From an uncultured Chthonomonas sp. (lineage in GTDB: Bacteria > Armatimonadota > Chthonomonadetes > Chthonomonadales > CAJBBX01): 64,000 nt of DNA. Positions 17,826-22,658 of the stretch are shown here, piece after piece. The stretch is taken from positions 1-64,000 of the forward strand of contig CAISJD010000109.1 of NCBI GenBank assembly GCA_903885605.1. The letters are read 5' to 3'. The notes under the pieces were generated by a model. That model ran no database searches, was not told the DNA's origin, and saw only the letters and a program-made list of their open reading frames with translations. The translations under genes and the position numbers were made by a program. Within the stretch, counting starts at the first letter, position 1; every line of letters starts with the position of its first letter.

Positions 17826-18923
17826 ATGACTGAGCGAGAGCGGTTCCACGCCTGTATGCGCTACGAAGCCGTGGACAAGGCGCCCCACTGGACCTGGGGC
17901 GGCTGGCCCGAGACCATGGAGCGGTGGCAGCGCGAGGGCTTCGACGGGGCCACCATGGACGTGCGCCAGGGCGCGGACCGGGTCAACTGGGTGGGGCACT
18001 GGTTCTTCCCCAACCCTCCCTTCGAGCACCAGGTGCTGGAGGAGGACGAGACGCACATCCTCTACGTGAACCACGAGGGCATCCTCATGCGGGAGATGAA
18101 GGGGAACCCCTACAGCTCCATGCCCCAGTTCGTGAAGTTCCCGGCCGAGACGCGCGAGGAGTTCCGACGCTTCTGGTCGGAGAGGATGAAGCCCGACCTC
18201 GCCGCCCGGCTGGGGCCGGACTGGAGGGGCGTCCTGCATGGGCTGCAGGCCGATACGGCTCCGCTGGTGGTCATCTCGGACCGGTGGGGCGGCTTCTTCG
18301 GCCCGCTGCGGAACCTGGTGGGCGTCGAGCGGCTCTGCATGCTCTTCTACGATGATCCGGCCTTCATCGAGGAGATGATGGATGCCAACGCGGACTTCAT
18401 CATCGCCGTGATGGGCCAGGTGCTGGACGAGATCCACGTGGATGCCTTCGCCTTCTGGGAGGACATGGCCTACAAGACCGGTCCGCTCCTCACGCCCAAG
18501 CTGGCGCGCAGGTTCATGCTGCCCCGGTACCGGCGCGTGGTGGAGTTCCTGCGCGGCAGGGGAGTGGAGTGGATCGGCCTGGACAGCGACGGGCGCATCG
18601 ACTCGCTCATTCCTGTATGGGTCGATGCGGGGCTCAACTTCCTCTATCCGTTCGAGGTGCAGTCGGGCATGGATGTCCTGCAGGTGCGCCGCGAGTATGG
18701 CCGCGACCTGCGCCTCTGGGGCGGGGTGGACAAGCGCGCCATGGCCGAGGGGCCGGCGGCCATCGACGCCGAACTCGAGCGCGTCCGGCCGATCATCGAG
18801 GAGGGCGGATACATCCCGATGGCCGACCACTCCTGCCCGCCGGACATCTCGTGGCCCTGCTACGTCTACCACATGGCGCGGCTCCGGCAGGTCTGCTTCG
18901 AGGCCGGAGGCGGCCGCGCATAG
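17826..18923 (+). CDS. URO-D-like protein (uroporphyrinogen decarboxylase superfamily)
   Basis: This 365-residue protein begins MTERERFHACMRYEAVDKAPHW, the usual opening of URO-D superfamily members found next to glycan genes, and continues with DAFAFWEDMAYKTGPLLTPK and FYPFEVQSG-like barrel segments. Classical HemE substrate-binding Arg patterns are not obvious. Family members include haem-pathway decarboxylases and corrinoid methyltransferases (MtaA, CmuA). With two rhamnosidase genes directly upstream (10-nt gap, GAGGAG overlapping the previous stop), a role with methylated sugars or their methyl groups is possible but inferred. ADHSCPPD near the end could bind metal. Confidence 0.8.
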   Translation: MTERERFHACMRYEAVDKAPHWTWGGWPETMERWQREGFDGATMDVRQGADRVNWVGHWFFPNPPFEHQVLEEDETHILYVNHEGILMREMKGNPYSSMPQFVKFPAETREEFRRFWSERMKPDLAARLGPDWRGVLHGLQADTAPLVVISDRWGGFFGPLRNLVGVERLCMLFYDDPAFIEEMMDANADFIIAVMGQVLDEIHVDAFAFWEDMAYKTGPLLTPKLARRFMLPRYRRVVEFLRGRGVEWIGLDSDGRIDSLIPVWVDAGLNFLYPFEVQSGMDVLQVRREYGRDLRLWGGVDKRAMAEGPAAIDAELERVRPIIEEGGYIPMADHSCPPDISWPCYVYHMARLRQVCFEAGGGRA

Positions 18924-18958: not shown

Positions 18959-18971
18959 AGATATGCCGGCC

Positions 18972-20300
18972 TTAGTTGCCCCAGGTCTCCGCTTGCAGGA
19001 TGTAGCTCGCCGCCAGCGCCACCTGATCCTCGGTGGGATTGTCGAAGAGGAGCAGCGCGGAGGCCTCCGGCGTGAAGCGCGTGCCCGGCGCGTCGATGCG
19101 TATGCCGCGCAGGTAGGTCACGTGCATGCGGTCCAGCGCCTCGTCGGCATCGCAGGCGACGCCGGCCTGGTCGGTGGTGATGTCCTCGATGAAGGACTGG
19201 ATGCCCGCCCGCTTGAAGCAGCGGCCGATGTTGAGTGTGTAGGTGATCTTCTGAAGGGCCGGGCGCGAGACCTGGATGCCGTTCATGTCGGCGTAGAGGG
19301 CCATGGCGTCGGTCATCTGCATCACCGTCAGGCCGGCGTCGTCCCGCCCCTCGATCTCGGCCCAGAGCGCGCGCACCAGCCGCTCCCGGTCGATCCACGG
19401 CACCATCGGCACGCGCTTGTTCTGCAGCACGCCGCGGTAGTACTGCGCCAGGGTGGCCGCCGAAGCCGCCGGCGCCGCCTGCTTGCGCTGGTCCGTCGGC
19501 GCCGCCGCGCTGGAACTGCTGGGAACCGGGGCCAGCGCTTCGATGACGACATCCATCCCCTGCATGCCCGCGATGCGGACGAGCCCATGCTCCTCGGCGG
19601 CTTCGACGAAGCTCTTGAAGGTGCGGAAGCCCAGGTTCTTCGCCTCAAAGGTGGGCTGGATACGGCGCATCATCTGGGCGGTGTTGGCTCCCGTGCAGGT
19701 GAGGCCCTGGTTGGCGACGCTCTCCAGTGCGCGGAGGAGCGTCTCGCGGGCGCGGTCCATTTCGTCCATCACGGCCGGGGCCTCGGGCTCCGCGGTTTCG
19801 GTCGCATCGCTGGTCTCGTCGGACCGCGGAAGCAGGTCGTCGTAGTACCAGTAGGCGTCGCAGAGGCGGGCCAGGGAGCCGCTGATGCTGCCCTTGAGGC
19901 CGATACCGATAAGCTGCTTCGTATATCGCTTGAGTTTCTGGACGAGAGGCACGTAGTCGCGGTCGCCGGAGCCGACGATCACCACGTCCGGTCCGGCCGG
20001 CAGCAGGGCCATCTCCATGGCGTCCAGGGCGAGCTGCATATCGGCGGTGTTCTTGCCCTTGGCGTCGGTGGAGAGGAGCGCCATTTCGACGCCCGCCTTC
20101 ATCAGGTCCCGCTTGGTGCTCTGGAGATAGGGCCGCGTAAAGTCGCCGTAGGCTCGCGCGACGACCATGCGTCCCTCGGTTCGGGCTCTGGCAATAATAA
20201 GATTAACATCAAAATCAAGTCCTTGCTGCATGGCATGAATACACAGGTTCTCAACGTCCAGGTAAACAGCCACGCGTCCATCGCCAAGTTCGACGGGCAT
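18972..20300 (-). CDS. NYN-domain protein with OST-HTH/LOTUS RNA-binding domain
   Basis: This 442-residue protein begins with a NYN/DUF88 (LabA-like) PIN-fold domain: VAVYLDVENLCI near residue 10, a central ADMQLALDAMEMAL segment and VIVGSGDRDYVPLV near residue 95, which supply the acidic residues of a metal-dependent RNase site. Residues about 180-265 match an OST-HTH/LOTUS winged helix (RETLLRALESVANQGLTC, NLGFRTFKSFVEAAEEHGLV). A C-terminal helical region of about 150 residues is unassigned. NYN plus LOTUS suggests an RNA-targeted nuclease. AGGAG 6 nt upstream fixes the ATG at 20300; longer in-frame starts run into the divergent flavoprotein gene. It is transcribed away from that gene. Confidence 0.85.
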   Translation of the reverse strand: MPVELGDGRVAVYLDVENLCIHAMQQGLDFDVNLIIARARTEGRMVVARAYGDFTRPYLQSTKRDLMKAGVEMALLSTDAKGKNTADMQLALDAMEMALLPAGPDVVIVGSGDRDYVPLVQKLKRYTKQLIGIGLKGSISGSLARLCDAYWYYDDLLPRSDETSDATETAEPEAPAVMDEMDRARETLLRALESVANQGLTCTGANTAQMMRRIQPTFEAKNLGFRTFKSFVEAAEEHGLVRIAGMQGMDVVIEALAPVPSSSSAAAPTDQRKQAAPAASAATLAQYYRGVLQNKRVPMVPWIDRERLVRALWAEIEGRDDAGLTVMQMTDAMALYADMNGIQVSRPALQKITYTLNIGRCFKRAGIQSFIEDITTDQAGVACDADEALDRMHVTYLRGIRIDAPGTRFTPEASALLLFDNPTEDQVALAASYILQAETWGN

Positions 20301-20343
20301 AGGGTCTCCTTTGGCGGCTTGAGAGCCGCTCGGTTGTCGGCTG

Positions 20344-20361
20344 CCTCCGCCGGCGCGGAGG
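20344..20361. other. Hairpin in the divergent NYN/flavoprotein intergenic region
   Basis: CCTCCGC (20344-20350) and GCGGAGG (20355-20361) form a 7-bp stem with a CGGC loop. It could be an operator palindrome or a leader structure. TAGAAT lies 3' of it on the plus strand, but a matching -35 is missing. Confidence 0.3.
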
Positions 20362-20430
20362 AATAGGGCCGGTCCCTGTAGAATGGCATAACGACGGCCG
20401 AAGGATGGCCGAACCCCGAATGGAGGCAGT

Positions 20431-21707: not shown

Positions 21708-22658
21708 ATGGAGAGCCGGGAGATCGTGCTGCGCGCCATCGAGTTCCGCGACCCGCCGCGCCTGCCGATCAACTACTGCAACCGCGACTTCGAGTGCTCC
21801 GACGTGCTGGCCAACGGCGCCGGCGCCGATGCCTCGTTCCGCCCCACCCAGCCGGGCATGACCGAGTGGGGCTACATCTGGGGCAGCCTGGACCAGACCA
21901 TGGGTCAGCCGCACGGGCACCCGCTGGCAGACGCCGCACGCATCGCCGACTACCGCCGTCCGGTGGGGACCGACCCCTCGCGCTACGCCCATCTGCCGGG
22001 CTGGATCGCCGAGAACCGGAGCAAGTTCCTGCGCGCCTCCGTGGGGATCAGCGGGTTCAACCAGGCGACCTTCCTGCGTGGGTTCGAGACCTTTCTGGAG
22101 GACCTCTACACCGACCCGGCGCGGGCCGACGCTGTCCTGGACATGGTCTTCGACTTCGAGAACGAGCTGATCGAGCGCTACTGCGCCCTGGACGTCGACT
22201 GCGTCGTCTTCGGCGACGACTGGGGCACGCAGAACGGACTGATCATCTCGCCTGCCAAGTGGAGGAAGGTCTTCAAGCCCCGTTACGCCGAGCAGTTCGC
22301 CGCGATCCGGGCTTCAGGCAAGAAGGTCTGGTTCCACTGCTGCGGCAACATCCGCGACGTGGTCGGCGACTTCATCGATATCGGCGTGGACGTGCTGGAG
22401 CTGCTGCAGCCGGACGTCTTCGGCGTCGAGTGGCTGGCGCGGGAGTTCGGCGGCAAGGTCTGCTTCTGCTGTTCCGTGGACCACCAGCGCCGGGCCGTGC
22501 AGGGCACGGAGCAGGAGATCAAGGAGTACGCCCGCAAGCTCAGGGACGAGCTGGGGCGGTTCAACGGCGGCCTCATCGGCTACGTGGAGGACTACCGCTC
22601 GCTGGGCATGACCGAAGAGAACTATCAGTGGATACGCCAGGCGTTCCACAGCCTGTAG
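21708..22658 (+). CDS. URO-D-like protein (methyltransferase-type relative)
   Basis: This 316-residue URO-D superfamily protein starts MESREIVLRAIEFRDPPRLP. It carries VWFHCCGNIRDVVGDFIDIG near residue 206 and GGKVCFCCSVDHQRR near 247; the HxCG motif is common in corrinoid-type methyltransferase relatives and could bind zinc. It is shorter than HemE and unlikely to be the haem enzyme. The ATG at 21708 follows GAGGAG within the upstream gene's tail. The operon continues with a Tat-exported Gfo/Idh/MocA protein and a HEAT-repeat protein. Confidence 0.8.
   Translation: MESREIVLRAIEFRDPPRLPINYCNRDFECSDVLANGAGADASFRPTQPGMTEWGYIWGSLDQTMGQPHGHPLADAARIADYRRPVGTDPSRYAHLPGWIAENRSKFLRASVGISGFNQATFLRGFETFLEDLYTDPARADAVLDMVFDFENELIERYCALDVDCVVFGDDWGTQNGLIISPAKWRKVFKPRYAEQFAAIRASGKKVWFHCCGNIRDVVGDFIDIGVDVLELLQPDVFGVEWLAREFGGKVCFCCSVDHQRRAVQGTEQEIKEYARKLRDELGRFNGGLIGYVEDYRSLGMTEENYQWIRQAFHSL

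Follow-up and report, generated by a model that had tools for sequence, protein, structure and literature searches.

Nearly all bacterial proteins with an OST-HTH (LOTUS) domain consist of a DUF88/NYN nuclease domain and one or two OST-HTH domains, an architecture called stereotypic for bacteria by Anantharaman et al. 2010 (PMC2848206). These LabA-like LK-nuclease fusions carry an N-terminal NYN domain with conserved acidic residues, lack conserved gene neighbours and were proposed to be stand-alone RNA-degrading enzymes. The partner domains named in the accessible text are S1/cold-shock, Zn-knuckle and DUF2384, with ROQ not among these. In animals, NYN and LOTUS domains likewise share a chain in MARF1 (limkain b1), which has eight LOTUS domains (PMC6294520). 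A different arrangement is found in Regnase-1 and Roquin (REGE-1 and RLE-1 in C. elegans, PMC9371910), where the NYN/PIN nuclease and the ROQ reader are two proteins that act on the same hairpin-bearing mRNAs (PMC9371910, PMC5031192). Roquin is an immune regulator in animals, and its ROQ domain is the portion that grasps RNA hairpins. An evolutionary study of Roquin treats the protein within metazoans, at least in the part accessible to us.

Here, we analyze a gene in a 64,000-nucleotide stretch of DNA (hereafter the window) from an uncultured Chthonomonas sp. of the Armatimonadota. The initial annotation had titled this gene an NYN nuclease fused to a LOTUS domain. As that fusion is not new in bacteria, having been described since 2010, the title alone describes an ordinary member of a known family. 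The new part is a conserved C-terminal domain, predicted to adopt the ROQ fold, which is extra relative to the bacterial DUF88/NYN-OST-HTH proteins and which we did not find reported outside Roquins. A literature search, with most subscription journals and bioRxiv outside its coverage, gave no report of a bacterial ROQ domain in titles or the opening lines of abstracts among the matches listed.

Architecture and surroundings of the gene

The gene occupies positions 18972-20300, where the initial annotation had placed it, and runs on the minus strand, which that annotation had left unstated. Its product comprises three domains and two linkers, with the following coordinates in the window:

18972..20300, minus strand: NYN-LOTUS-ROQ-like gene, 442 amino acids, stop codon included (ATG at 20300, stop at 18972)
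20306..20312, minus strand: ribosome-binding site AAAGGAG, 5 nt upstream of the ATG, read from the sequence
19827..20279, minus strand: NYN (PIN-like) nuclease domain, residues 8-158, from Pfam and structure, with acidic residues D15, D87, D113 and D115
19770..19826, minus strand: linker 1, residues 159-177, of low model confidence and under relaxed selection (dN/dS 0.21-0.35)
19530..19769, minus strand: LOTUS / OST-HTH winged helix, residues 178-257, from family profile and structure
19461..19529, minus strand: linker 2, residues 258-280, of low model confidence (dN/dS 0.13-0.30)
18975..19460, minus strand: ROQ-fold domain, residues 281-442, from predicted structure and family profile

The gene is present as a single copy within its own genome, its start codon falls at the same place in relatives, and the loci L032 and L033 show 97% and 96% identity. 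We rejected a plus-strand open reading frame at 18963-20366 as an antisense shadow of the minus-strand gene, which is GC-rich.

The NYN domain is recognized directly by Pfam (PF01936, residues 9-151, E 5.3e-26, 92.3 bits against a cut-off of 24.2). In a full-length AF2 model, built on a 6-row alignment with a mean pLDDT of 75.3, its best structural match is VPA0982 (PDB 2qip, Z 19.7), a Vibrio NYN protein that is also matched by profile (E 5.3e-11) and represents the closest solved nuclease structure, although the solved chain is the NYN domain only (165 residues). MARF1 NYN structures rank second and third (Z 17.8 for 5yaa, and 17.0), so that the MARF1-type resemblance suggested earlier is real and extends to the NYN-LOTUS combination. 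The two proteins nonetheless differ: the window protein has one LOTUS domain instead of eight and no RRM (no Pfam match at E<=1), and carries the ROQ-like tail instead.

Putative catalytic residues were compared in 20 of the 24 ROQ-bearing loci described below. D15, the Asp of the YLDVEN motif, is present in 19 of 20, the exception being a gap in a sequence truncated by the end of its contig. All 20 retain D87 and D113, and 18 retain D115. With D15, D87 and D113 conserved in 19-20 of 20 relatives, an active nuclease is expected, and we consider it probable that the protein is an active RNase, an activity that is inferred and not shown.

The LOTUS domain falls below threshold in the single protein (PF12872, E 0.088, 13.1 bits against 23.8; E 0.0066 for the cut-out stretch) and becomes clear at the level of the family and of structure. 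Of the 28 stretches cut out of aligned family members, 20 are matched by PF12872 at E<=0.1, the strongest at 4e-10, and an OST-HTH match appears in 13 of 18 aligned family proteins at E<=1. Against the PDB, the LOTUS family profile finds the NMR structures 2kzv (7.5e-8) and 2kpm (7e-4); the latter is the structure given for bacterial OST-HTH in Anantharaman et al. 2010 (PMC2848206). Residues 173-257 of the AF2 model match LOTUS domains of the animal germ-line kind, those of TDRD7 and TDRD5 (Z 9.3-9.9). Structure prediction, which had been proposed as a means of refuting the LOTUS assignment, thus finds the fold present, and the NYN-LOTUS fusion is borne out.

The direct neighbours of the gene encode a URO-D-like enzyme and an HI0933-like flavoprotein. 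Two URO-D-like genes of the uroporphyrinogen decarboxylase superfamily flank the region (17826-18923 and 21717-22655, E 7e-11 and 9e-14); such genes may be methyltransferases, not haem enzymes. Across families, we found no conserved neighbour in 20 further regions, one plasmid region and the window, using crude ORF calls. This absence, together with the window's own neighbours, agrees with a stand-alone enzyme and resembles the lack of conserved neighbourhood in the bacterial NYN-OST-HTH proteins (PMC2848206). Branched-chain permease genes lie upstream of the NYN-LOTUS-ROQ gene in family f15 only, in at most five loci. In the same family, six loci (L068:9154-10065, and also L067, L069, L070, L071 and L079) have, directly 3' of the NYN-LOTUS-ROQ gene and in the same orientation, a gene of about 300 amino acids without a Pfam match, a possible operon partner.

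A predicted ROQ fold at the C-terminus

No Pfam family matched residues 281-442 in scans of the window protein and of family members. We modelled this region alone with AF2 and obtained a pLDDT of 87.7 and a pTM of 0.83, from an input of no more than 4 rows, which amount to about 2 distinct sequences; the other four models average 58-79. The model consists of one helix, a winged helix of three helices and two strands, and three more helices. This is the element order reported for ROQ, in which an extra N-terminal helix precedes a winged helix-turn-helix and a second helix-turn-helix (PMC4346627).

Structural searches with this model return Roquin ahead of everything else. In VIA-align, ranks 1-13 are 13 Roquin entries at Z 15.9-16.8 (rmsd 2.9-3.5, 145-150 residues aligned, identity 11-13%), followed at rank 14 by a winged helix of Cullin-1 (Z 7.6, 73 residues). 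In Foldseek, ranks 1-26 are Roquin chains (E 6e-5 to 8e-3, probability 1.00), and the first non-Roquin chain has an E of 0.12. The full-length model, which comes from a different alignment, places Roquin at ranks 4-16 (Z 15.6-16.6). Roquin was probably part of the data on which AF2 was trained.

The family profile of the domain ranks Roquin-1 and Roquin-2 first among 177,635 PDB sequences. The E-value is 0.014 with 10 rows and 3.2e-4 with 21 rows (next match 0.55), and it stays at 2.5e-4 with 17 rows when the window's own family f1 is left out (next match 0.10). Five residues (L292, R305, C361, F362 and L418) are invariant across the 21 aligned members, and the C361-F362 pair aligns with Roquin C254-F255. 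Matches to Centrin, CDKL5 and RsbS in the PDB profile searches were dismissed, being weak (E >=0.039) and without a structural counterpart near the score of ROQ. We likewise set aside the OST-HTH-associated (OHA) domain, known from plant MNU proteins (PMC9181182), as the identity of the C-terminus, since the Pfam scans gave no such match.

These data can also be read as a general tandem of winged-helix and helix-turn-helix units of independent origin, whose likeness to ROQ is accidental. The low identity is compatible with such an origin, and so is the behaviour of the subgroups: searched apart, A7 (12 rows) has no PDB match and A8 (9 rows) no Roquin match, and the sequence signal therefore depends on the two being merged. 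The Pfam ROQ model PF21206 is also silent, with nothing above cut-off in 291 Armatimonadota genomes, and no family member is matched by the ROQ models in Pfam. However, the Z gap exceeds 8 (15.9 against 7.6) in an alignment that takes in nearly all 150 residues of the ROQ domain, which is hard to reconcile with coincidence, the merged profile finds the same family that the structures find, and the overall ROQ fold was called new, with no other PDB example at the time, in the accessible part of the Roquin structure paper (PMC4346627). We therefore regard a chance likeness as very unlikely and hold the domain assignment, including the ROQ fold of the C-terminus, with high confidence. Common descent with the ROQ domain of Roquin is likely, although this question is not closed.

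The window protein does not belong to the Roquin protein family, as it has no RING, HEPN or CCCH finger (Pfam, E<=1). Its likeness to Roquin-1 and Roquin-2 (RC3H1/2) lies in the whole fold of a predicted model and in the Cys-Phe pair, and it differs in carrying a nuclease on the same chain and in its RNA-contact residues. The Roquin ROQ domain binds hairpin RNA and needs Lys220, Lys239, Lys259 and Arg260, with Tyr250 required for hexaloops (PMC5603727); a Y250A/K259A/R260A mutant of Roquin also appears in PMC9371910. We placed these sites by their offset from the Cys-Phe pair, with Roquin numbering set by counting from Tyr250 and Lys239; positions 256-260 are approximate because the wing has gaps, and K220 lies outside the printed alignment and was not placed. 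The window protein has R at 239, N at 250, G at 259 and I at 260. Over the 21 rows, the 239 site is K or R in 3, the 250 site aromatic in 11, and the 259 and 260 sites R in 6 and 2 respectively. K239, Y250, K259 and R260 are thus mostly not kept, and 20 of 21 rows have a net negative charge in this domain (-5 in the window, range -17 to +1). Given this charge and the loss of most contact residues, the domain does not seem to reproduce the Roquin RNA surface.

The initial annotation had suggested that the last 150 residues or so hold another RNA-binding unit. A further unit is indeed there, as the predicted ROQ fold, whereas its binding to RNA is inference only and poorly supported at the level of residues. 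The same charge and contact-site data could point to a module for protein-protein contact or dimerization, leaving the choice of RNA to LOTUS and NYN alone, and the two helix-turn-helix units of the Roquin fold are a common scaffold (PMC4346627). Against this, the companion domains are RNA modules, and the best-conserved stretch (C361-F362 and the preceding helix) corresponds to the lining of the RNA site in Roquin, where Phe255 takes part through its main chain (PMC5603727). A pure contact role is in our view rather unlikely, but a serious alternative. That the ROQ-fold domain itself binds RNA is a tentative inference that we would not press, with no RNA target shown; it may read RNA in another way than Roquin does, or serve as a contact module.

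Distribution and selection in Armatimonadota

A profile search for the ROQ-like domain gave one match each in 24 of 291 Armatimonadota genomes, spanning seven family labels (f1, f9, f14, f15, f17, f19 and f38). NYN accompanies it in 23 of the 24 loci, and the remaining one, L048, starts at the edge of its contig. L053 has the NYN domain in a neighbouring frame, and that of L051 is incomplete, cut off by the contig end. Of the 24 loci, 22 have LOTUS, with two copies in L039 and L050, and the domain order NYN-LOTUS-ROQ is fixed across Armatimonadota.

Several variants of the architecture were also observed. L057 and L058 encode NYN-ROQ proteins with a long acidic linker and no detectable LOTUS, a natural LOTUS-less form. 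In another Armatimonadota family (L013, L014 and L015), NYN-LOTUS is followed by long, low-complexity charged tails that replace the ROQ-like domain and contain RRR-type motifs. At L009 (G097), one in-frame TGA interrupts an NYN-LOTUS gene.

Measured against two relatives of the genus, dN/dS was 0.009 and 0 for NYN, 0.036 and 0.024 for LOTUS, and 0.047 and 0.043 for the ROQ-like domain, compared with 0.13-0.35 for the linkers. All three domains are under purifying selection, and because their dN/dS lies far below that of the linkers, the gene is not a product of chance. Distances in NYN and in the ROQ-like domain are correlated over 21 of the 24 loci (r 0.944, 0 of 2000 permutations), a value inflated by relatedness.

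Outside Armatimonadota, 398 genomes of the phylum of G291 (Clostridia) gave one partial match to the ROQ-like profile (48 positions, E 9e-4), about what chance would yield. A search of 397 relatives returned the same 24 genomes; about 106 of them should fall outside the phylum, which is represented by 291 genomes, and their kinship is not given. The searches therefore cover two phyla and a sample, and are no survey of bacteria.

We found no viral relatives of the full protein or of its C-terminus, no viral fold match at E<=0.001 and no PHROG match for the C-terminus. With tblastn, 6 phage and 120 plasmid records were matched, none with 80% coverage, and all 6 phage matches and the best 20 of the 120 plasmid matches stop at or before residue 248, short of the C-terminal domain. 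One plasmid record (Eleftheria) had no match to the ROQ-like profile. On these grounds, we rejected a phage or plasmid origin.

The patchy occurrence in 24 of 291 genomes would fit an anti-phage or abortive-infection nuclease as an alternative to a housekeeping RNA-decay enzyme. The PADLOC NYN model PDLC01154 gives a weak match (E 4.4e-4 over 67 of 310 positions; 3.9e-7 for L042), so a defence role is not excluded. We consider it unlikely, however: the direct neighbours are URO-D-like and HI0933-like genes and none is conserved across families (neighbours were not scanned for defence genes), and an NYN dN/dS of at most 0.009, together with the correlated NYN and ROQ distances, looks long-held and not fast-exchanging.

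Proposed activity and the origin of ROQ

The reading that we favour, with some reservation, is a stand-alone bacterial RNase in which an NYN nuclease is combined with LOTUS and ROQ-fold modules that choose its substrate. Computation shows the NYN domain, with the acidic residues that it carries, as well as LOTUS, a predicted ROQ fold, the domain order and purifying selection; nuclease activity and RNA binding are inferred. In this scheme, the N-terminal NYN endonuclease would cut RNA through the acidic cluster of D15, D87, D113 and D115, and flexible linkers would join it to the two substrate-choosing modules. LOTUS, by inference, may bind structured or G-rich RNA; LOTUS and G-quadruplex RNA are the subject of Ding et al. 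2020 (as cited in PMC9181182). The ROQ-fold domain, again by inference, may help to select a hairpin or duplex RNA or may position the protein. Together, the two modules would bring NYN to structured RNA, and one chain would hold what animals divide between an NYN/PIN nuclease, namely Regnase or MARF1, and Roquin as the reader of hairpins; the likeness to the Regnase-1/Roquin pair is functional only.

A bolder proposal, which we offer as no more than possible, is that the ROQ domain of Roquin has a bacterial branch, with a hairpin-reading ROQ, LOTUS and a nuclease united in one Armatimonadota chain. ROQ would then, like LOTUS, be of bacterial descent or have been transferred between bacteria and animals, and would not be an animal invention. 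A bacterial ROQ fold fused to NYN would give a first clue to the origin of ROQ and would tie Roquin-type RNA recognition to a nuclease in a single polypeptide. The question of what bacterial NYN-LOTUS nucleases cut also becomes testable, since the ROQ part points to a class of substrate, namely hairpins or duplexes. If the proposal is true, the NYN-LOTUS-ROQ proteins of Armatimonadota would represent a single-protein form of the Regnase/MARF1-Roquin logic of mRNA decay.
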